DNA of 36,361 nt from an uncultured Ferrovum sp. Its GTDB lineage: Bacteria; Pseudomonadota; Gammaproteobacteria; Burkholderiales; Ferrovaceae. The notes under the pieces are model-generated. The model was not told the origin of the DNA, did no database searches, and was given only the letters and a program-made list of their open reading frames with translations. The stretch lies in contig CAIVUX010000034.1 in the NCBI GenBank assembly GCA_903909215.1, positions 1 to 36,361 of the forward strand. The letters are read 5' to 3'. This document shows, piece by piece, positions 19,253 to 28,545 of the stretch. Every line of letters begins with the position of its first letter. Position 1 is the stretch's first letter. The position numbers and the translations under genes were made by a program.

Positions 19253-20698
19253 ATGAACCGTCCGCGCTCCCTCAACCAGATCGCTCTGCGCTACTCCGCC
19301 ATCTACTTGGCGCTGGTCATCATTACCAGTGCATTGGGTGCCGGGGGGTTAACCCTATGGCAAAAAAATACCGAGGAATCGCACCGACTGCAAGTGATGA
19401 TTCATGAGGTGGAAGCCATGCGGGGCACGCTTTATCGGCAAATGAAAGAACTCTTCGACGCGACCTTTTTGGCTGATGCGCAAGCCCCCATGCAGTACCG
19501 CGAGTTTGGCCAACAAATTGAAGACAGTCTGCATCGCTTAGCCGAAAACGCGCGTCCTGGTGATGAGACGCTGGCGGTGGTAGAACTGAAACGCACCTAT
19601 CGAGAAATTTATCAGCGCACCAGCTTAGTGGCCTTCGGTCCCGTCCCTACAGAGAATCAACTGCTGCAGCGCAGCTTCGATTCTGATTTAGAATCGGGTG
19701 GCATTAAACAATACGAAACAGCCTTTGGTCAGATTGATCAATTACTGGAGCAGCAGCAAGGCGCGTTGCAACAAAAGCTCACCTCATTGGCGCGCTATAC
19801 ACCGCTTATTTTAATTGTACCCATGCTGTTGGCTGTGGGTTTATGGTTACTCACGCAACGTTTTCTGCGCAATTATTTTGTCCGCCCGCTTTCGCAGTTA
19901 TTAAAAGCCACCACAGAGCTGACCCATGGCGAATTGGCGCACCCCGTGCCGCGCCAAGGGGCCTTAGAACTCATCACCTTGGCCGACGCCATCAACGCCA
20001 TGGCGGCAGACTTAGCGCAAAGCCGAAACGCTTTGGTCACTGCCGAACGTCAGGCCACCTTAGGCGCCTTGGTGCCCATCGTGGCGCATAATATTCGCAA
20101 TCCCTTGGCCAGCATTCGCGCCACCGCCCAAGTGATCGACGACGAACATCTCACGCAAGAGGTGCGCGAAGGGCTGCAAGGTATTATGGACAGCTGCGAT
20201 CGCTTAGAACGTTGGACCGAATCATTGCTTTCTTACTTGCACCCCTTAGAGGCCACGCGCCAGAACACCGCTCTGGGCCCTCTGCTGCAAGACCTTATCC
20301 AGATGATGCAACCCATGGCGCGCTCACGCGGCGTGATCTTACACTTGCATATTCCCACTCAACCCCTCATGGCTCAGATCGACCCCGAACTGGTGGAGCA
20401 AGCCTTGCACGGTTTAATCATCAACAGTATTGAGGCCTCTCCTATGGATGGACAGGTGGCAATCCTACTGCAGCAAGAAACCGGTCGCATTACCCTACGC
20501 ATAAAGGATGATGGACCTGGCTTGCCCTTTGCCCCACAGACAGGCAGACTGACTCCCGGACCTACCACCAAGCGTTCTGGCACGGGTTTGGGCATTCCCT
20601 TCGCCCTTAAAGTGTTTGAAGTTCATGGTGGGGGCGTGCAATTTGATCTCCGTCCTGAGGGCGGAACTGAGGCTCTGCTGTGGTTACCACTACCCTAA
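19253..20698 (+). CDS. Sensor histidine kinase of an NtrC-type two-component system
   Basis: A 481-residue membrane kinase. TM1 near 15-35 (YLALVIITSALGAGGLTLW) and TM2 near 183-203 (TPLILIVPMLLAVGLWLLTQ) enclose a mostly helical periplasmic domain of about 145 residues with no recognised ligand fold. HAMP follows (NYFVRPLSQLLKATTELTHG). The phosphoacceptor is His279 in PIVAHNIRNPLASIRATAQV. The ATPase domain has IINSIEASP (N box), IKDDGPGLPF (G1) and SGTGLGIPFALKVFEVHGG (G2). The H-box style is shared with NtrB/PilS-like kinases that pair with sigma-54 activators. It overlaps the downstream regulator by 19 bases. The signal sensed is unknown. Confidence 0.9.
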   Translation: MNRPRSLNQIALRYSAIYLALVIITSALGAGGLTLWQKNTEESHRLQVMIHEVEAMRGTLYRQMKELFDATFLADAQAPMQYREFGQQIEDSLHRLAENARPGDETLAVVELKRTYREIYQRTSLVAFGPVPTENQLLQRSFDSDLESGGIKQYETAFGQIDQLLEQQQGALQQKLTSLARYTPLILIVPMLLAVGLWLLTQRFLRNYFVRPLSQLLKATTELTHGELAHPVPRQGALELITLADAINAMAADLAQSRNALVTAERQATLGALVPIVAHNIRNPLASIRATAQVIDDEHLTQEVREGLQGIMDSCDRLERWTESLLSYLHPLEATRQNTALGPLLQDLIQMMQPMARSRGVILHLHIPTQPLMAQIDPELVEQALHGLIINSIEASPMDGQVAILLQQETGRITLRIKDDGPGLPFAPQTGRLTPGPTTKRSGTGLGIPFALKVFEVHGGGVQFDLRPEGGTEALLWLPLP

Positions 20699-22140
20699 CC
20701 GATTCTGCTGCGCTGGCCATGGGCGCCACGGCACATATTCTCATTATTGAAGATGAAGCGCTGTTCGCGCGCGCAGTAGAAAAGCGTCTTAAAAAATTGG
20801 GTTATGAATGTGCGCTTGCGGGCACCCTATCAGAGGGTTTTGAAAAAGCCCGCGCCTTGCAACCCGATCTTATTCTGTTGGATTTGCGTCTGCCCGATGG
20901 CGATGGTTTGGATCAACTGGGCACGCTCACGCAGATCAATTCCGAACGTCCCACGCCGGTGATTGTCATGACCGCTTTTGGTGAAGTGGCGGACGCGGTG
21001 CGCGCCATGAAACAAGGGGCCACAGATTATCTAAAAAAACCCATCGATTTAGAAGAGATGGTGGTAACCGTGAATGCCACCTTACGTACCGCCACCTTGC
21101 AACAACAGTTAGAGCGTTCACGTGAGCGCGAAGCGCGCAGCAGCGACAGCTTAGTCATGATTGGCGAAAGCCTCCCTATGGTGGAATTGCGTCAACAGAT
21201 TATTCAATTGGGCCGCCTGACACAGCCGGGCGCACCGGGGCCCACAGTCCTGATTCAAGGCGAGACAGGGGCTGGTAAAGATGTGGTGGCGCGCCTGCTG
21301 CATCAAGCCAGCGCCAATAAAAATTCCCCCTTTGTACATGTGGATTGCGCAGCTCTACCGCGCGATTTGATTGAAGCCGAATTATTTGGCCATGAAAAAG
21401 GGGCCTACACCAGCGCCATGCAAGCACGTAGTGGTCTATTAGAAGCCGCTGAAGATGGAACGCTTTTTTTGGACGAAATCGGCGAATTGCCGCTGGACTT
21501 ACAAGCCAAATTACTCACCGTGATTGAAAGGCGACGCCTGCGTCGTGTGGGTTCTGTACGTGAGCGTGAAATTCCGGCGCGCTTTGTGGCGGCCAGTAAC
21601 CGCAACTTGCACCAGATGGTAGAAGATGGCCAATTTCGCTCCGATCTCTACTTTCGCTTAAACGTACTGACCCTAACCTTGGCTCCATTGCGCGCCCGTG
21701 GTGATGACATCCTCTTGCTGACGCAGCACTACGCCGAACAAACCGCACGGCGTTACCACCTGCCCGCACCCTCCTTCGCACCAGACACCTTGACCGCATT
21801 GCAAGCCTACTCCTGGCCGGGTAATGTGCGCGAACTCAAGCACCTCACAGAACGGGCTGTATTGCTCAGTGGGGGCGCGCCCTTGGGGGTGAAAGATTTT
21901 TCTCTAGGCGGCCCTTTGACCACTTTGGGGTCAGACCTCAATTCGGGGTCTGACCCCAAAACTAACCCCATGAAAGGACTCGTATCCTTGGGTGACGCTG
22001 AGAAAACCATGATTCAAGAGGCGCTGCTGGTTTGTGAGGGCAATATTTCAGAAGCGGCGCGTCGCTTGGGCATTACCCGTATGACACTGCGCTACCGTAT
22101 GGAAAAACACCGCATTCGACTGGAGTCCGCCGAGGATTAG
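20680..22140 (+). CDS. NtrC-family response regulator (sigma-54 activator type)
   Basis: 486 residues. The receiver domain (about 18-130) has acidic pair Glu24/Asp25 in ILIIEDEA, phosphoacceptor Asp68 in LILLDLRLPDGDG and Lys in DYLKKPID. The AAA+ domain has Walker A GETGAGKD (194-201), Walker B TLFLDEIGELP (near 261-271) and the R finger region FRSDLYFRLNVL. The sigma-54 contact loop, normally GAFTGA, reads GAYTSA at 241-246. The C-terminal Fis-type helix-turn-helix is NISEAARRLGITRMTLRYRM. Residues 415-429 in the linker are encoded by a pair of dispersed palindromes. GTG 20680 has GAGG upstream; ATG 20719 is an alternative that still keeps the receiver domain. Target candidates include the sigma-54 promoter directly downstream. 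Confidence 0.92.
   Translation: MVTTTLTDSAALAMGATAHILIIEDEALFARAVEKRLKKLGYECALAGTLSEGFEKARALQPDLILLDLRLPDGDGLDQLGTLTQINSERPTPVIVMTAFGEVADAVRAMKQGATDYLKKPIDLEEMVVTVNATLRTATLQQQLERSREREARSSDSLVMIGESLPMVELRQQIIQLGRLTQPGAPGPTVLIQGETGAGKDVVARLLHQASANKNSPFVHVDCAALPRDLIEAELFGHEKGAYTSAMQARSGLLEAAEDGTLFLDEIGELPLDLQAKLLTVIERRRLRRVGSVREREIPARFVAASNRNLHQMVEDGQFRSDLYFRLNVLTLTLAPLRARGDDILLLTQHYAEQTARRYHLPAPSFAPDTLTALQAYSWPGNVRELKHLTERAVLLSGGAPLGVKDFSLGGPLTTLGSDLNSGSDPKTNPMKGLVSLGDAEKTMIQEALLVCEGNISEAARRLGITRMTLRYRMEKHRIRLESAED
21924..21960. repeat. Palindrome pair inserted in frame in the NtrC-type regulator gene
   Basis: Cores GGGGTCAGACCTC (21927-21939) and GGGGTCTGACCCC (21945-21957) form an inverted repeat extended by TTT and AAA at the outer edges. 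It adds a Gly/Ser/Asp/Asn-rich segment (LGSDLNSGSDPKTN) between the AAA+ and DNA-binding domains without breaking the frame. Confidence 0.85.
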
Positions 22141-22176
22141 AATCGAATTGGGTTGGAATTGACTGAAAGCTGTGTT

Positions 22177-22193
22177 TTGGCACAACAAATGCT
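22177..22193 (+). promoter_or_regulatory. Sigma-54 (-24/-12) type promoter
   Basis: TTGGCACAACAAATGCT carries the -24 GG at 22179-22180 and the -12 GC at 22191-22192, exactly 10 bases apart, preceded by a T run as in many RpoN promoters. The match to TGGCAC-N5-TTGC has only one base of the -12 box changed. It lies 36 bases behind the stop of an NtrC-type activator, on the same strand. Transcription should start near 22204. Confidence 0.72.
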
Positions 22194-22203
22194 TGCATAG
22201 GAC

Positions 22204-22285
22204 GTGAGGGCTGTTTGTTTAATGTTTCCCTCCTCCTATTGCGGACTTAACTGCCGGATTCCTAAACAGATTCCGGCATTTTTTT
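22204..22285 (+). ncRNA. Candidate sigma-54-dependent small RNA of about 80 nt
   Basis: Defined by a sigma-54-type promoter (22177-22193) and a Rho-independent terminator (22252-22285), with no convincing reading frame between. The predicted transcript starts GUGAGGG, has a U-rich stretch, then CCCUCCUCCU at 22228-22237, which is complementary to Shine-Dalgarno sequences, then the terminator stem. GAGGG (22206-22210) could pair with CCCUC (22228-22232), hiding part of that site; CUGUUU (22211-22216) could pair with AAACAG (22264-22269) in the terminator loop. I do not recognise it as a named family. The arrangement is like crcZ behind cbrB in Pseudomonas, but no sequence kinship is claimed. 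Confidence 0.55.
22252..22285 (+). terminator. Rho-independent terminator behind the NtrC-type regulator
   Basis: TGCCGGA (22252-22258) pairs with TCCGGCA (22272-22278) and is followed by seven T residues. It ends transcripts coming from the regulator gene or from the sigma-54-type promoter. Confidence 0.88.
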
Positions 22286-22306
22286 CGACTTCTCTAAAAC
22301 CAGTAC

Positions 22307-22364
22307 AGCACCATAATGGTGGTTCATTTCAACCATTTCGGCTGAAATGAACCAGTTTGGTGCT
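22307..22364 (-). terminator. Long hairpin at the 3' end of pnp
   Basis: Outer arms AGCACCA/TGGTGCT (22307-22313 and 22358-22364) and inner arms of 11 perfect pairs (GGTTCATTTCA at 22321-22331 with TGAAATGAACC at 22343-22353) make a strong imperfect hairpin overlapping the last base of the pnp stop codon. The T tract on the minus strand is weak and distant (TTTT near 22300), so it may act in 3'-end stability as much as in termination. Confidence 0.55.
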
Positions 22365-24481
22365 TAGTCGGGTGCGGCTTCGGTTTCAGTGGCCGGTTGT
22401 TCCAACAAAGCCTTCATGCTTAAACGCAGACGACCCTTTTCATCGGCTTCCAACACCTTCACTTTCACCAGCTGACCTTCTTTTAAATGGTCGCCCACGG
22501 CGTTTACACGCTCGTTGGCAATTTGCGAGATGTGCAGCAGGCCATCACGACCCGGCAACACGCTCACAATGGCGCCAAAGTCCAACAGCTTCAAAACGGT
22601 ACCCTCATACACTTTGCCCACTTCTACGTTAGCTGTGAGGTCCTCAATGCGCTTGCGGGCCATTTCACCCGCTTCCGAGCTTAGACAGGCAATATTCACA
22701 GTGCCGTCATCTTGAATGTCGATAGTGGTGCCGGTTTCTTCCGTGAGGGCACGAATCACCGCGCCGCCCTTGCCGATCACATCACGAATTTTTTCAGGAT
22801 TAATCTTGATGGTGATGATGCGTGGGGCGTAGGTGGAGAGCTCTTGGCGCGCATCGGGCACGGCTTGTTTCATAATGCCCAAGATGTGAATACGCGCTTC
22901 CTTGGCTTGTGCCAGGGCCACTTGCATAATCTCTTTGGTAATGCCGGTAATCTTGATGTCCATTTGCAGCGCAGTAACGCCACGATCGGTACCCGCCACT
23001 TTAAAGTCCATGTCACCCAAATGATCTTCGTCACCCAATATGTCGGTGAGTACGGCGAAGCGGTTGCCTTCTTTAATCAGGCCCATGGCTACGCCGGCGG
23101 TATGCCCTTTTACAGGAACACCTGCATCCATTAGCGCCAATGAACCACCGCATACGGAGGCCATAGAGCTGGAACCATTGGATTCCGTCACTTCAGACAC
23201 CACGCGTATGGTGTAACCAAATTCTTCTGCGGTGGGTAAGGTGGCTACCAGCGCGCGCTTAGCCAGGCGACCGTGACCAATTTCACGACGCTTAGGGCTG
23301 CCCACACGGCCGGTTTCGCCGGTGGCATACGGTGGGAAATTGTAATGCAGCATGAAGCGGTCTTTGTACTCGCCTTGCACAGCATCAATGATTTGCTCAT
23401 CACGTCCGGTGCCTAATGTGGCCACTACCAAGGCTTGTGTTTCGCCACGGGTGAAGAGTGCGGAACCATGGGTGCGGGGCAATACGCCCACACGTACGGA
23501 AATGGGGCGCACGGTACGGGTATCGCGGCCATCAATGCGGGGTTCGCCATCCAAAATTTGACTGCGCACGATGCTGGCTTCTAAATTGCCAAACATATTT
23601 TTAATGCGGTTTTGTGTGTCGGCATTGGCATCCGCCGGCATCACCGCTGTCATCACCTTGTCGCGCAAACTATTGATTTGCTCGGTTCGTTCTTGCTTGC
23701 CGCGCACGCGGTAAGCGGCTTTCAGTTCTTCTAAGGCCAAGGCGTTAATCTGTTGTACTAGGGCTTCGTCAGGTGCGGGGGCGGTCCAATCCCAATCATC
23801 CTTACCGGCTTCATCGGCCAAAGCATTAATGGCATCAATGGCCACTTGCATTTGTTGATGGCCAAACACCACGGCCCCCAACATCACTTCTTCGGACAAC
23901 TCTGAGGCTTCGGACTCTACCATCAGCACGGCATCGCTGGTGCCGGCCACCACCAAATTCATTTCTGAAGTGGTGATTTCTGTGGCGGTGGGGTTAAGAA
24001 TATATTCGCCATTGGCGTAACCCACACGGGCTGCACCAATGGGGCCGCTAAAAGGAATGCCGGCCAAGGTAACCGCAGCAGAGGCACCGATGAGAGCTGG
24101 AATGTCTGGATCAATTTCGTTGTTGCTGGACATCACCGTGGCAATCACCTGCACTTCGTTGTAGAAGCCTTCAGGAAATAGTGGGCGCAGGGGACGGTCA
24201 ATTAAGCGTGAAGTGAGGGTTTCTTTTTCAGTGGGGCGGCCTTCTCGTTTAAAGAAACCACCGGGGATACGGCCACCGGCGTAAAAACGTTCTTGGTAAT
24301 CCACCGTCAGGGGGAAGAAGTCTTGGCCTACTTTGGCCGATTTTCGCGCCACGCAGGTCACCAATACCACGGTGTCGTCCATGGTCACCATCACAGCACC
24401 GTCGGCTTGGCGAGCAATCTCACCCGTCTCGAGGGTGACTTGATGCCGACCCAATTGAAATGTCTTACGAATTGCGCTCAT
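22364..24481 (-). CDS. pnp: Polyribonucleotide nucleotidyltransferase (PNPase)
   Basis: The 3'-5' phosphorolytic exoribonuclease of the RNA degradosome; 705 residues, usual length. Two RNase PH domains are seen, the first beginning [18 protein letters not shown] with [20 protein letters not shown], the second with [20 protein letters not shown] and [40 protein letters not shown] carries active-site Ser residues. A KH domain ([20 protein letters not shown], near 555-575) and an S1 domain ([20 protein letters not shown], near 620-640) end the protein. It follows rpsO, as in most proteobacteria, with a terminator between them. Confidence 0.97.
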
Positions 24482-25863: not shown

Positions 25864-26853
25864 CTACTCGTTCCACTCTAATTCAGCATACCCTGCAGTT
25901 ACATTGCGCGGGTGGAAGAGGTCAAACAACTTCCATTCTCCTGCCGGTTGGGCGGACAGTTCTGCCACAGTATCAGTCAAATTCTTTCCTGCGTGAATGG
26001 CGCTGGTGATGTCCGTGCGCAAGTTTTGCAAGTAACGTTCTTCAGGAACAATGGCGCTGGCAATGGAAGATGCCAAGGGACCGTGACCGGGCACCACCTC
26101 GCGGGCGGATTCGGTATGCAGCACCGTCAGCGCGGACAGCCAACCTTTTAAATTGCCATCCAACACCGGCGTATGTTCACGAAAAGCCAGGTCGCCTAAA
26201 AATAAGGTGCCGCTCACCTCGTCGTAAACCGTGAGGTCATTGTCGGTATGTGCCGTGGGCCAAGTACGCAGCGTCAAGATACGCCCGCCTAAGTCTAAGC
26301 GGTCGGTTTTTTCTACCAAACGCGTGGGGATCACAATGTCCGAGCGTGCGCCCTCATCACCCAATAGGTCTAGTGTCGTGCGGTATTTGGCCGCACGCAT
26401 CAGCAAGGCGCGCGGCATTTTGGTATTGGCTATAAATTCTGGAGCATCGCCCACAAAGGCTCTGGCGCCAAACACATGATCCAGATGCATGTGGGTGAAA
26501 ATCACCGCGCACACCGGTAACGGGGTAATGGCACGAATGGCATTGCGCACCGCCAAACCCACCGTGATACTGCCCCCCGTGTCAATGACGGCTACGCAGC
26601 GCTGCCCCACCACCACGCCTATGTTGGAGAGATCACCATGATTTTCTGGAGCGTAATCGCCTAGCTGGCCTTGGTGCATATACACGCCCGCAGCAATGGG
26701 TTGCAAAACGGGCGTTTCAGCTTGAGCGCTTACGGCAGAGAGTAACAAGATGAGCAAGACCGGGGCGAGCATCGGGGTCAGACCCCAAATTTGGGGTCTG
26801 ACCCCTAATGCACTAATGCAACCCCTAAAGGGGCGCAACAATGATTTCACCAC
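25864..26853 (-). CDS. Metallo-beta-lactamase fold hydrolase, quinoprotein relay system type
   Basis: A probably periplasmic zinc hydrolase. The metal site THMHLDHVFGARAF (HxHxDH) is clear, with GVVVGQRCVAVIDTGGSITV before it, PTAHTDNDLTVYDEVSGTLF and LFLGDLAF after it, and EVVPGHGPLAS near the C-terminus. This matches the SoxH-related hydrolases found with SoxYZ-like carriers and PQQ-dependent dehydrogenases; the substrate is unknown. The start is ambiguous. ATG 26772 begins a hydrophobic signal core (MLAPVLLILLLSAVSAQA) without basic residues. GTG 26853 has GGAG 6 bases upstream and adds a basic N-terminus, but about 10 of the added residues are encoded by a palindrome. ATG 26859 is also open. 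It overlaps fhcC with the longer starts. Confidence 0.85.
   Translation of the reverse strand: MVKSLLRPFRGCISALGVRPQIWGLTPMLAPVLLILLLSAVSAQAETPVLQPIAAGVYMHQGQLGDYAPENHGDLSNIGVVVGQRCVAVIDTGGSITVGLAVRNAIRAITPLPVCAVIFTHMHLDHVFGARAFVGDAPEFIANTKMPRALLMRAAKYRTTLDLLGDEGARSDIVIPTRLVEKTDRLDLGGRILTLRTWPTAHTDNDLTVYDEVSGTLFLGDLAFREHTPVLDGNLKGWLSALTVLHTESAREVVPGHGPLASSIASAIVPEERYLQNLRTDITSAIHAGKNLTDTVAELSAQPAGEWKLFDLFHPRNVTAGYAELEWNE
26774..26805. repeat. Perfect 32-base palindrome at the N-terminus of the hydrolase gene
   Basis: Cores GGGGTCAGACCCC (26774-26786) and GGGGTCTGACCCC (26793-26805) are joined by AAATTT to give a fully symmetric 32-base palindrome directly before ATG 26772. It could hide the ribosome binding site of that ATG in RNA. 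Confidence 0.9.
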
Positions 26854-27652
26854 GGCCATCTCCGCTGCGATCGCCTAAATAACGTTGCACCACTATGGGT
26901 TCTGTGGGCAGTTGCGCAAAGCCACCGCCCAATTTTTGCAAGGAGCGAAACAGCAGGGTCAGCACGCCAAAGGTTTGCCTGTCACCACCGTTAAAAGTAG
27001 CCGGGATCGCGTTTAAGTTTGGAAAAATAAGCGTGCCGCGCCGCATGCCATAACCTGGATGAGTGCCACACCCTTTTAAGGCCATTAAGGTGCCCGCCAA
27101 CATGCGCGAGCCCGCGTAGTCGCCTACCCGGCCTTCGATAAGAATAGCACCACGGCGCATGCGGTCCCCCGCACGATGTCCCACATTGCCACGCACGCGC
27201 ACTTGGCCACCGGCCATGCCTTGCATTTCGCCTGGCACGGCAGCGCCTAAAAAATCACCCGCATCCCCGCTAATATCAATGGCACCGCCGCGCATTTGCG
27301 CAGCGGCAAAAATACCCACCGCGCCTTTTACAGTAATCAGCCCGCCGGTCATACCCTGCCCTAGATAGGCCCCCGCATCGCCTTCCACCATAAGAGAGCC
27401 CTCGCTCATGGTGGCACCCATACGGTCAAAACGGCTGACAGCCCCTTTAATAATGATGTTGGCGGTATCCTCGCCTTGCACGGTAAAGACATCCGCCACG
27501 CTCAAGCGCCTCTTGCCGCACGGCAGTGAGAGCGTCATTATTTCTTTTAACGGTAAACCGGCCAAGCGTTGCGGTGTGAGGGCGGAGATATCCATGCGCT
27601 GTGCGGGCAGCACATCTTGGGCGGTAAAGATTAAGGGGGCCAAGGCACTCAT
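26825..27652 (-). CDS. fhcC: Formyltransferase/hydrolase complex subunit C
   Basis: 275 residues, homologous to subunit C of archaeal formylmethanofuran dehydrogenase. The body is a right-handed beta-helix built from Gly-rich turns: MSEGSLMVEGDAGAYLGQGM, MRGGAIDISGDAGDFLG, MAGGQVRVRGNVGHRAGDRM, MRRGAILIEGRVGDYAGSRM and MRRGTLIFPNLNAIP. In Methylorubrum extorquens the FhcABCD complex moves the formyl group from H4MPT to methylofuran and hydrolyses it to formate; subunit C organises the complex. It is the last of four overlapping genes and overlaps fhcD by 4 bases. Confidence 0.93.
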   Translation of the reverse strand: MSALAPLIFTAQDVLPAQRMDISALTPQRLAGLPLKEIMTLSLPCGKRRLSVADVFTVQGEDTANIIIKGAVSRFDRMGATMSEGSLMVEGDAGAYLGQGMTGGLITVKGAVGIFAAAQMRGGAIDISGDAGDFLGAAVPGEMQGMAGGQVRVRGNVGHRAGDRMRRGAILIEGRVGDYAGSRMLAGTLMALKGCGTHPGYGMRRGTLIFPNLNAIPATFNGGDRQTFGVLTLLFRSLQKLGGGFAQLPTEPIVVQRYLGDRSGDGRGEIIVAPL

Positions 27653-28545
27653 GACAAAATCTCCCGCAGATGAAAGTGAAACTGACCCAGTTTGCCGCCA
27701 TAATTTCCTGCGGAGATGGCCATAACACCCGCATCGCGTCCGCGTGCACAGACCGCTTCCAACCCCACGCGCGTGGCTTCGCGCACCGCGGCTTCGGTTA
27801 ATCCATCAATCACGATTTCCATACAACTGCCCGCTTCATTGGGCAAGGCCGACTGCACCACAGAGCGCAGCGTTGGGCAATAAGCATCATTCGTGGACGC
27901 CGAGAGCGTTTTATAACGTGAGCCTACCTTAGAGCCCGAGCGCACCACGCCGCCTGGGAAGGGCATGATGACATCTCGCACATGACGCATGGCCTCAATA
28001 GCGGCTTCCGCTGCTGCCAAACCTTGCGAAGTATTGCCGGTCAAAATTAAAAAATTACCGCCGCCCACGGCACGCACCATGCGCGTGGTTTCTTGGCATA
28101 AAAATTCACCATCCATAACCGGAATACGCCAATAGCGCTTGCCGTCAATGACTTTAGAGGCTTGCCAACCATCGCCAAAATAGCGCAGGTTTTTACCCAA
28201 GGGAATGGCGTCGCCCTCCGTAAGACCTGCAAACACCGCGGTGGTGGGGCAGGTCAGCACGGTTTGCCCCACACGCTTCTCCACTTGTGAAATTAATTCT
28301 TTGCTGGACGCAGAAAAAATCAGCACCGAAGCACCGGGGCGGCCATCGGGTGTTTCGCTGGGATCAAGACGGCGTTCAATACCCGCTTCCACGCCGCAAC
28401 CAATCACAGAAGTAGCAAAGCCGGTTAAGGCGTGCGCCGCATGGTAGGCCCATTTTAAGTTTTCAGCGGTAATAAGAATGCGTGTGCCGCGCATACCAAA
28501 TGCTTCGGCAAACGTGTCTTCAATTAAGACGCCATTCTTAATCAT
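27649..28545 (-). CDS. fhcD: Formylmethanofuran-tetrahydromethanopterin formyltransferase
   Basis: 298 residues, the length of the archaeal Ftr family. It transfers the formyl group from N5-formyl-H4MPT to methylofuran. The sequence begins MIKNGVLIEDTFAEAFGMRG and has ILITAENLKWAYHAA, FGDGWQASKVIDGKRYWRIP, MDGEFLCQETTRMVRAVGGG, VMPFPGGVVRSGSKVGSRYK and MAISAGNYGGKLGQFHFHLR, all typical landmarks. It overlaps fhcA and fhcC by 4 bases each, so the genes are translated from one message. Confidence 0.96.
   Translation of the reverse strand: MIKNGVLIEDTFAEAFGMRGTRILITAENLKWAYHAAHALTGFATSVIGCGVEAGIERRLDPSETPDGRPGASVLIFSASSKELISQVEKRVGQTVLTCPTTAVFAGLTEGDAIPLGKNLRYFGDGWQASKVIDGKRYWRIPVMDGEFLCQETTRMVRAVGGGNFLILTGNTSQGLAAAEAAIEAMRHVRDVIMPFPGGVVRSGSKVGSRYKTLSASTNDAYCPTLRSVVQSALPNEAGSCMEIVIDGLTEAAVREATRVGLEAVCARGRDAGVMAISAGNYGGKLGQFHFHLREILS

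Follow-up and report, generated by a model that had tools for sequence, protein, structure and literature searches.

The window analyzed here is a stretch of DNA of 36,361 nt, part of a genome of 1.53 Mb in 51 contigs (G000). It holds the genes of a sensor histidine kinase and an NtrC-type response regulator, followed on the same strand by a short segment that the original prediction read as a sigma-54-driven small RNA (sRNA) gene. Pfam bears out the two genes, and the coordinates that had been given for the promoter, the CU-rich block, the pairing segments and the terminator are all correct on the sequence. The features of the locus are as follows.

19253-20698, forward strand: sensor histidine kinase (HAMP, HisKA, HATPase_c; Pfam)
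20680-22140, forward strand: NtrC-type response regulator (Response_reg, Sigma54_activat and HTH_8, a Fis-type HTH; Pfam, orthologues, HTH comparison)
22178-22192, forward strand: predicted sigma-54 promoter TGGCACAACAAATGC (-24 GG at 22179-22180, -12 GC at 22191-22192, spacing 10)
22204-22285, forward strand: predicted sRNA of about 82 nt (start placed from the promoter spacing, end from the T-run)
22206-22232, forward strand: predicted 5' stem-loop, GAGGG (22206-22210) with CCCUC (22228-22232)
22228-22245, forward strand: CCCUCCUCCUAUUGCGGA block, complementary to Shine-Dalgarno sequences (sequence comparison)
22252-22285, forward strand: intrinsic terminator, a 7-bp stem (22252-22258/22272-22278) and then T7 (22279-22285)
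22320-22335, no strand assigned: dyad TGGTTCATTTCAACCA, candidate regulator site 1 (downstream enhancer), conserved; 0.05 occurrences of the exact form expected in the window
22339-22354, no strand assigned: dyad CGGCTGAAATGAACCA, candidate regulator site 2; pair spacing 19, pair score reached by 0 of 300 shuffles
22364-24481, reverse strand: pnp (polyribonucleotide nucleotidyltransferase; NCBIfam TIGR03591), convergent neighbor

Sequence inspection also places CCCTCCTCCT at 22228-22237, CTGTTT at 22211-22216 and AAACAG at 22264-22269. The terminator is absent from the list of a simple scan, which permits loops of at most 8. The pnp gene is probably not part of the sRNA unit; as this next gene lies on the opposite strand, the promoter faces only the RNA. 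Kinase matches at E ≤ 1e-60 occur in 18 of a sample of 399 genomes of the order, its own genome counted.

Within the window, the promoter pattern is found once, against 0.86 expected from shuffles, which is the chance level. The predicted fold of the RNA (22203-22286) is more stable than those of shuffled sequences (z = -2.46), and since that of its 5' part alone (22204-22250) is not (z = -0.38), the fold signal comes mainly from the terminator. It is the comparison of relatives that turns the chance-level promoter match into a credible gene.

Two other traits of the window were recorded. Between 24968 and 34938, a C1/PQQ-linked region beside the two-component system encodes a quinoprotein-associated SoxYZ carrier and metallohydrolase, a TonB-family protein, beta-RFAP synthase, and formylmethanofuran dehydrogenase subunits A, B and C with the formyltransferase; these H4MPT-linked C1 genes suggest that a methylotroph-like betaproteobacterial host is plausible. 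A repeat of the GGGGTCAGACCCC type has 11 sites of 13 nt in 36 kb against 0 expected (3511, 10063, 10098, 10115, 21927, 21945, 24564, 25828, 25845, 26774 and 26793). The two repeat stretches tested both form perfect hairpins; the response regulator gene contains one copy (21924-21960), and the metallohydrolase ORF as listed (25864-26859) contains the pair at 26774-26805.

Conservation within the family

A search covering 100 relatives found a close orthologue of the regulator in 15 genomes of the family, including that of the window, the others being 59 to 74% identical. One of them (G023) was left out of the count of the unit because its contig ends inside the regulator gene. All 14 testable genomes carry a GG-N10-GC promoter and an RNA of about 80 nt with CUCC and a terminator. 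In the family alignment, all 14 promoters keep TGGC and TGC unchanged while the bases of the spacer vary; in G005, G011 and G017, where the sequence is TGGCCC or TGGCCT, the promoter was assigned by visual inspection. CUCC is likewise present throughout (14/14), and the UAUUG after it in 11 of 14, being missing in G005, G011 and G019. The block is CCCUCCUCCUAUUG in G000, G017 and G026; G007-type genomes have UCCUCCCUAUUG, and G006, G018 and G027 have GCCUCCUAUUG. Among 13 sequences, 6 of the 10 predicted terminator pairs show changes on both sides. In G006, the promoter, RNA, terminator and downstream dyads (see below) stay together, 1.1 kb from the regulator. Within the family, the expectation that promoter and hairpin be kept in relatives that retain the two-component genes is borne out and, with the conserved paired dyad, supports the proposal of a sigma-54-driven sRNA behind an NtrC-type system.

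An RNA model built on this unit (R1) gave no match in nine listed family genomes that lack the two-component system (G001, G003, G008, G010, G014, G016, G020, G021 and G025); it matched all four scanned family genomes that have the system, all four being R1 training sequences.

Of two competing pairings that had been proposed to expose or hide the block, one stands in part. The GAGG/CCUC pairing is present in the predicted minimum-energy fold of 10 of the 12 family members folded (absent in G018 and G005) and is weak in the window RNA. The pairing of CUGUUU with AAACAG in the terminator loop was rejected as a conserved feature, since of 13 sequences checked the exact pair exists in the window's genome only. 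In several predicted folds, that of the window RNA included, the CUCC core is largely paired; the folds put some of the block into the 5' stem, which might mean that access to it is controlled, or that the core is too little exposed for the proposed mechanism.

Paired dyads and the regulator in other families

Past the terminator lies an element that the original prediction had missed. Two dyads of the form TGGTT-N6-AACCA are located 35 to 70 nt beyond it, roughly +117 to +151 relative to the predicted start. The one at 22320-22335 is the sole exact TGGTTS-N4-SAACCA of the genome; the looser TGGTT-N6-AACCA occurs exactly at C5:27652 and C50:42727 as well. With up to one mismatch allowed, TGGTTS-N4-SAACCA shows no enrichment over the whole genome (17 sites per strand versus 36 in the backward control), and we claim no wider regulon of dyad sites in G000. 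Among 16 other near-match sites, 14 were retrieved, the two on C50 being left out, and none of these 14 has a second dyad 17 to 25 nt away at up to two mismatches; pairing of the dyads is therefore what sets the window site apart.

The pairing was tested at 21 orthologue loci, by comparing the best dyad pair in the 560 nt behind the regulator gene with 300 shuffles. The families covered include f27 (G057), f31 (G061), f37 (G067, G111, G152), f24 (G100) and f40 (G192). At 17 of the 21 loci the best pair scores above all 300 shuffles; weaker pairs were reached by 1 of 300 shuffles in G019, 11 in G017 and 87 in G047b. The dyads of G006 (L200:4840 and 4861) lie outside its 560-nt test window. Wherever the pair is clear, its spacing is 19 to 22.

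In the Methylophilaceae L044, L046 and G056b, the regulator gene comes after a TonB-dependent receptor gene, and two to three dyads lie upstream of the receptor gene. In L046 a TTGGTACG-N4-TTGC promoter (TTGGTACGTTTTTTGC) is placed between dyads and receptor gene, the classical layout. The recognition regions of the regulators are near-identical (TRMTLRYRMEKH in the window, TRMTMRYRMEKH in Methylophilaceae). Enhancers of the sigma-54 activator type can act from a distance. Because the dyads recur beside orthologous regulators elsewhere and upstream of the Methylophilaceae receptor gene, they are probably the regulator's enhancer, which would bind the regulator and, in the window, act from downstream.

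Comparable units exist behind the regulator in other families. A promoter, a terminator and a dyad pair are found in G067, G111 and G152 (f37) and in G061 (f31). G057 (f27) has the terminator and the dyad pair, with a promoter that lacks the GG (TAGCACGAGTGTTGC). G047b (f17), read by eye, shows a sigma-54-type promoter and a terminator. In G100 and G192 the promoter is present and the terminator is not clear. The f37 RNAs have CUCCAACUUCCUCU in common (CUUCCUCUUCUU in G067), the G057 RNA has UUCCUCCUUUU, and CCUCC is missing from the RNAs of G061 and G047b. This variation of the motif among families suggests either that the layout is older than the motif or that the RNA changes fast. No such RNA was recognized in the 420 nt behind the orthologous regulators of L044, L045, L046, L047, L075, G056 and G047 C10.

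A TonB-dependent receptor gene also follows the system in G067, G100, G192 and G057. The Methylophilaceae receptor genes (L044:421-2928, L046:225-2750 and L198) are distantly PqqU/YncD-like: with NCBIfam, the L044 receptor gives 159.5 bits for a generic TonB-siderophore model and, second, 116.9 bits for PqqU, both below the cut-offs, and its closest solved structures are those of YncD and of a PQQ transporter. No dyad (at most one mismatch) was found at the receptor loci of g6 and the G000 fragment (six loci, flanks of up to about 1.5 kb). In that fragment, G000:C49:4097-4525 (L275), the match to the receptor query is confined to residues 47-190, and the gene may therefore be interrupted, simply short, or truncated where the contig ends. 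In other families, a PqqA-like peptide was noted by eye near the system or the dyads in G111, G152 and L045 (loci L183, L185 and L045).

Known RNAs and a candidate Burkholderiales class

The original prediction drew parallels with CrcZ and GlmY, and these hold for the layout. The crcZ gene of Pseudomonas adjoins cbrAB, and its product acts by titration; GlmY of enterobacteria is a sigma-54 RNA beside the NtrC-type system GlrKR. Like CrcZ and CrcY with CbrAB, the window RNA would be a sigma-54-dependent sRNA activated by an NtrC-type two-component system. In sequence the parallels fail, and RF02278/S17 is nearer: no Rfam match to CrcZ/CrcY or GlmY/GlmZ was obtained at gathering, nor at E ≤ 5 on 22141-22300, and the repeated A-rich Hfq/Crc motifs of CrcZ/CrcY were not seen in the window RNA. 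The window regulator scores 280 bits as GlrR, against a cut-off of 763. The candidate enhancer is downstream and palindromic, unlike the sites of CbrB, which uses three non-palindromic subsites in promoter regions (PMC6296734).

RF02278, the Rfam family Betaproteobacteria toxic sRNA, which includes S17 of Bordetella and bdhR1 of Burkholderia, resembles the window RNA in several respects: a short RNA, CCUCCUCC(U) before an intrinsic terminator (here 22228-22285), and CU-rich sites able to cover ribosome-binding sites. By eye, CCCUCCUCCUAUUGCGGA here resembles CCCUCCUCCUUUGGUGGA of RF02278 members. The 160 bases given to Rfam score 22.1 bits over the full model (E 0.012), well short of the gathering score of 50, and the match is absent when a longer sequence is scanned. 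RF02278 RNAs form a UCCACC/GGUGGA hairpin around the motif, whereas the window RNA on inspection lacks the 5' UCCACC arm and has an unrelated 5' stem. S17 is transcribed from a sigma-A promoter (in contrast to the sigma-54 promoter predicted here), is cut by RNase E, and acts directly on the ribosome-binding site of a target to repress it (PMC11722255); predicted interactions of Burkholderia RF02278 RNAs lie mostly at ribosome-binding sites (PMC5688073), and two reports term the function of RF02278 RNA unknown (PMC4603805, PMC7011215). A separate RF02278-like RNA with CTCCTCCTCCTTTATTGCAAAGG was observed at G000:C36:3860-3938 (L282; 35.9 bits, below gathering); RNAs of this type appear by eye right behind a gene end in G000, G007 and G018, and may thus be 3'-UTR derived.

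The alpha-r14/cuckoo RNAs share with the window RNA the CCUCCUCCC anti-Shine-Dalgarno motif; they have three hairpins, each with CCUCCUCCC, and a sigma-70 promoter, whereas the window RNA has one motif and a sigma-54 promoter. One of them, NfeR1, silences ntrB by pairing through CCUCCUCCC (PMC10746234). In literature covered mostly at the level of titles and the beginnings of abstracts, with subscription papers mostly outside it, we recognized neither the RNA, the dyad nor a sigma-54 CCUCCUCC class. Judged on sequence, the window RNA resembles RF02278 and is not a member; it is CrcZ/GlmY-like in layout and S17-like in motif and, by the tests made, a member of neither family.

Across the order, R1 at E ≤ 0.01 finds matches in 84 of 399 genomes. 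Many of these were rejected as members, as their matched part is limited to model positions 49-110 or 78-110 (the terminator or an RF02278-like part). Full-length matches are found in f23, f38, f48, f13 and f50, the f50 RNAs having CU-rich runs in place of CCUCCUCC. Within about 1.5 kb of eight full-length loci examined, neither the kinase, the regulator nor the receptor of the system has a match. A pattern made of a correctly spaced promoter with CCTCCTCC at 32 to 62 nt yields 46 matches in 43 of the 399 genomes, against 26 matches in 23 genomes when the promoter spacing is one base longer and about 20 in a backward control, so that chance may account for about half of the 46. A hairpin with a T-run behind it is present at 13 of 30 correct-spacing loci retrieved versus 1 of 26 off-spacing loci; by eye, the f6 and f48 stretches also have a T-run after the hairpin. 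Beyond the window's family, the accepted members number five in f13, six in f38, three in f48, four in f6 and one in f46, together with G142 (f23; through R1).

Covariation of the 5' stem was assessed on 18 of 22 aligned candidate sequences, whose kinship inflates the figures that follow. Paired cells make up 89.6% of the stem, whereas sliding it gives 60.4% at most, and the covariation score of the stem is 0.360 versus 0.217 in shuffled alignments (0 of 500 reach it). Pairs changed on both sides number three, a value reached by 162 of 500 shuffles and not above chance, and RNAalifold predicts only the terminator from the same alignment. An Rfam scan of 13 wider-class loci gave no match at gathering at the RNA site; weak scores included 28.4 bits for NmsRb, 26 for suhB, 25.4 for RF02278, 25.4 for ncS16 and 24.7 for MicX. 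No NtrC-type regulator was recognized in ten ORFs near the G190, G133 and G142 RNAs, of which five matched no family and not all need be genuine genes.

The window RNA has the layout of this class, namely a sigma-54 promoter, a 5' stem (weak in G000), a CCUCC block and a terminator, and may represent a branch of a larger class of CCUCCUCC RNAs, driven by sigma-54, in Burkholderiales. A broader reading, for and against which we see the balance as about equal, is that there exists an undescribed, widespread class of RpoN-transcribed anti-Shine-Dalgarno sRNAs (a sigma-54 promoter, a covarying 5' stem, UCCUCC and a terminator, in at least six families of the 399 genomes); that the Ferrovaceae-type branch is the dedicated output of an NtrC-type system through a downstream enhancer; and that in other families the system also controls a receptor distantly like PqqU and is situated near a pqqA-like gene, which would tie the RNA to PQQ-linked/one-carbon metabolism.

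Proposed mechanism and alternatives

Comparison shows a predicted promoter, a block, a terminator and paired dyads conserved beside this two-component system. Our main reading, with a probability of roughly 0.7, is that 22178-22285 is an sRNA gene transcribed by RpoN, activated by the adjoining regulator, whose product masks Shine-Dalgarno regions of its targets; transcription, dependence on RpoN and on the regulator, use of the downstream site, the pairing mechanism and the targets are what we infer from these elements. Transcription by RpoN-RNA polymerase would begin near 22204 and end at the terminator (22285), giving an RNA of about 82 nt, and the NtrC-type regulator encoded upstream would activate it, probably from the paired dyads downstream. 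The CUCC block is predicted to lie after a short 5' stem and before the hairpin of the terminator, and the sRNA would base-pair with target mRNAs at their Shine-Dalgarno regions, lowering translation; that it pairs at ribosome-binding sites is suggested by analogy with S17 and NfeR1. Target prediction with the block as seed, as originally proposed, revealed no conserved target: the pattern AATAGGAGG-N4-10-ATG has four matches in 14 genomes and none in G000. When the RNA was paired with 33 start regions of the window, that of fhcD (27649-28545) gave the best duplex (-19.9 kcal/mol versus a median of -9.2, a ranking made without a shuffled control), which we take as a lead only.

Several other explanations bear on the same elements. 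The hairpin could simply end the kinase-regulator operon and the resemblance to a promoter be fortuitous, with no separate RNA gene; the terminator does lie about 110 nt behind the regulator stop and the promoter pattern is about as common in the window as chance predicts, but GG-N10-GC is kept in 14 of 14 genomes despite a varying spacer, the internal CUCC block is kept as well, and in G006 the whole unit is found away from the regulator, all of which makes this account improbable. That the transcript encodes a small protein is more improbable by far: a 48-aa ORF does open with GTG at 22204, but it reads through the terminator and, its GTG being at the predicted first base, leaves no space for a ribosome-binding site, and ORFs inside the RNAs of eight family members (G000 and seven relatives) are short, none being common across genera. 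An RNA that titrates a protein (for example CsrA/RsmA via GGA, or Hfq) instead of pairing would recall CrcZ, the parallel in layout, and most family RNAs have at least one GGA. These triplets nevertheless shift or vanish (G005, G011, G017, G022 and G026 have no GGA after the block, and the 5' loop of G022 is also without one), whereas CUCC is kept in all 14, and we hold titration to be slightly less probable still than the operon terminator.

The downstream dyads might instead be the 3' structure of the convergent pnp mRNA, since in G000 and G007-type genomes both together form one long inverted repeat right behind pnp; similar dyads where a TonB-dependent receptor gene follows (G067, G100, G192 and G057), and others upstream of the receptor gene in Methylophilaceae, render this unlikely. 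The strongest competitor, doubtful all the same, is a diverged RF02278 member (S17/bdhR1) that gained a sigma-54 promoter and the regulator. The full-model score and the likeness of the two motifs argue for such a descent; against it stand the gathering threshold, the loss of the match on a longer sequence, the missing 5' arm and the better match on C36 of the same genome, and so short a common motif could be convergent.

If the sRNA gene reading is true, an anti-Shine-Dalgarno repressor RNA would be wired to a two-component system through RpoN, and the activator would thereby gain a repressing arm. The conserved dyad would be a candidate DNA target for an uncharacterized sensor, and a role in PQQ-linked metabolism is suggested by the linked TonB receptor, distantly PqqU-like, and the pqqA-like gene. 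The wider class, for its part, would serve as a set for studying RpoN-controlled sRNAs in betaproteobacteria.
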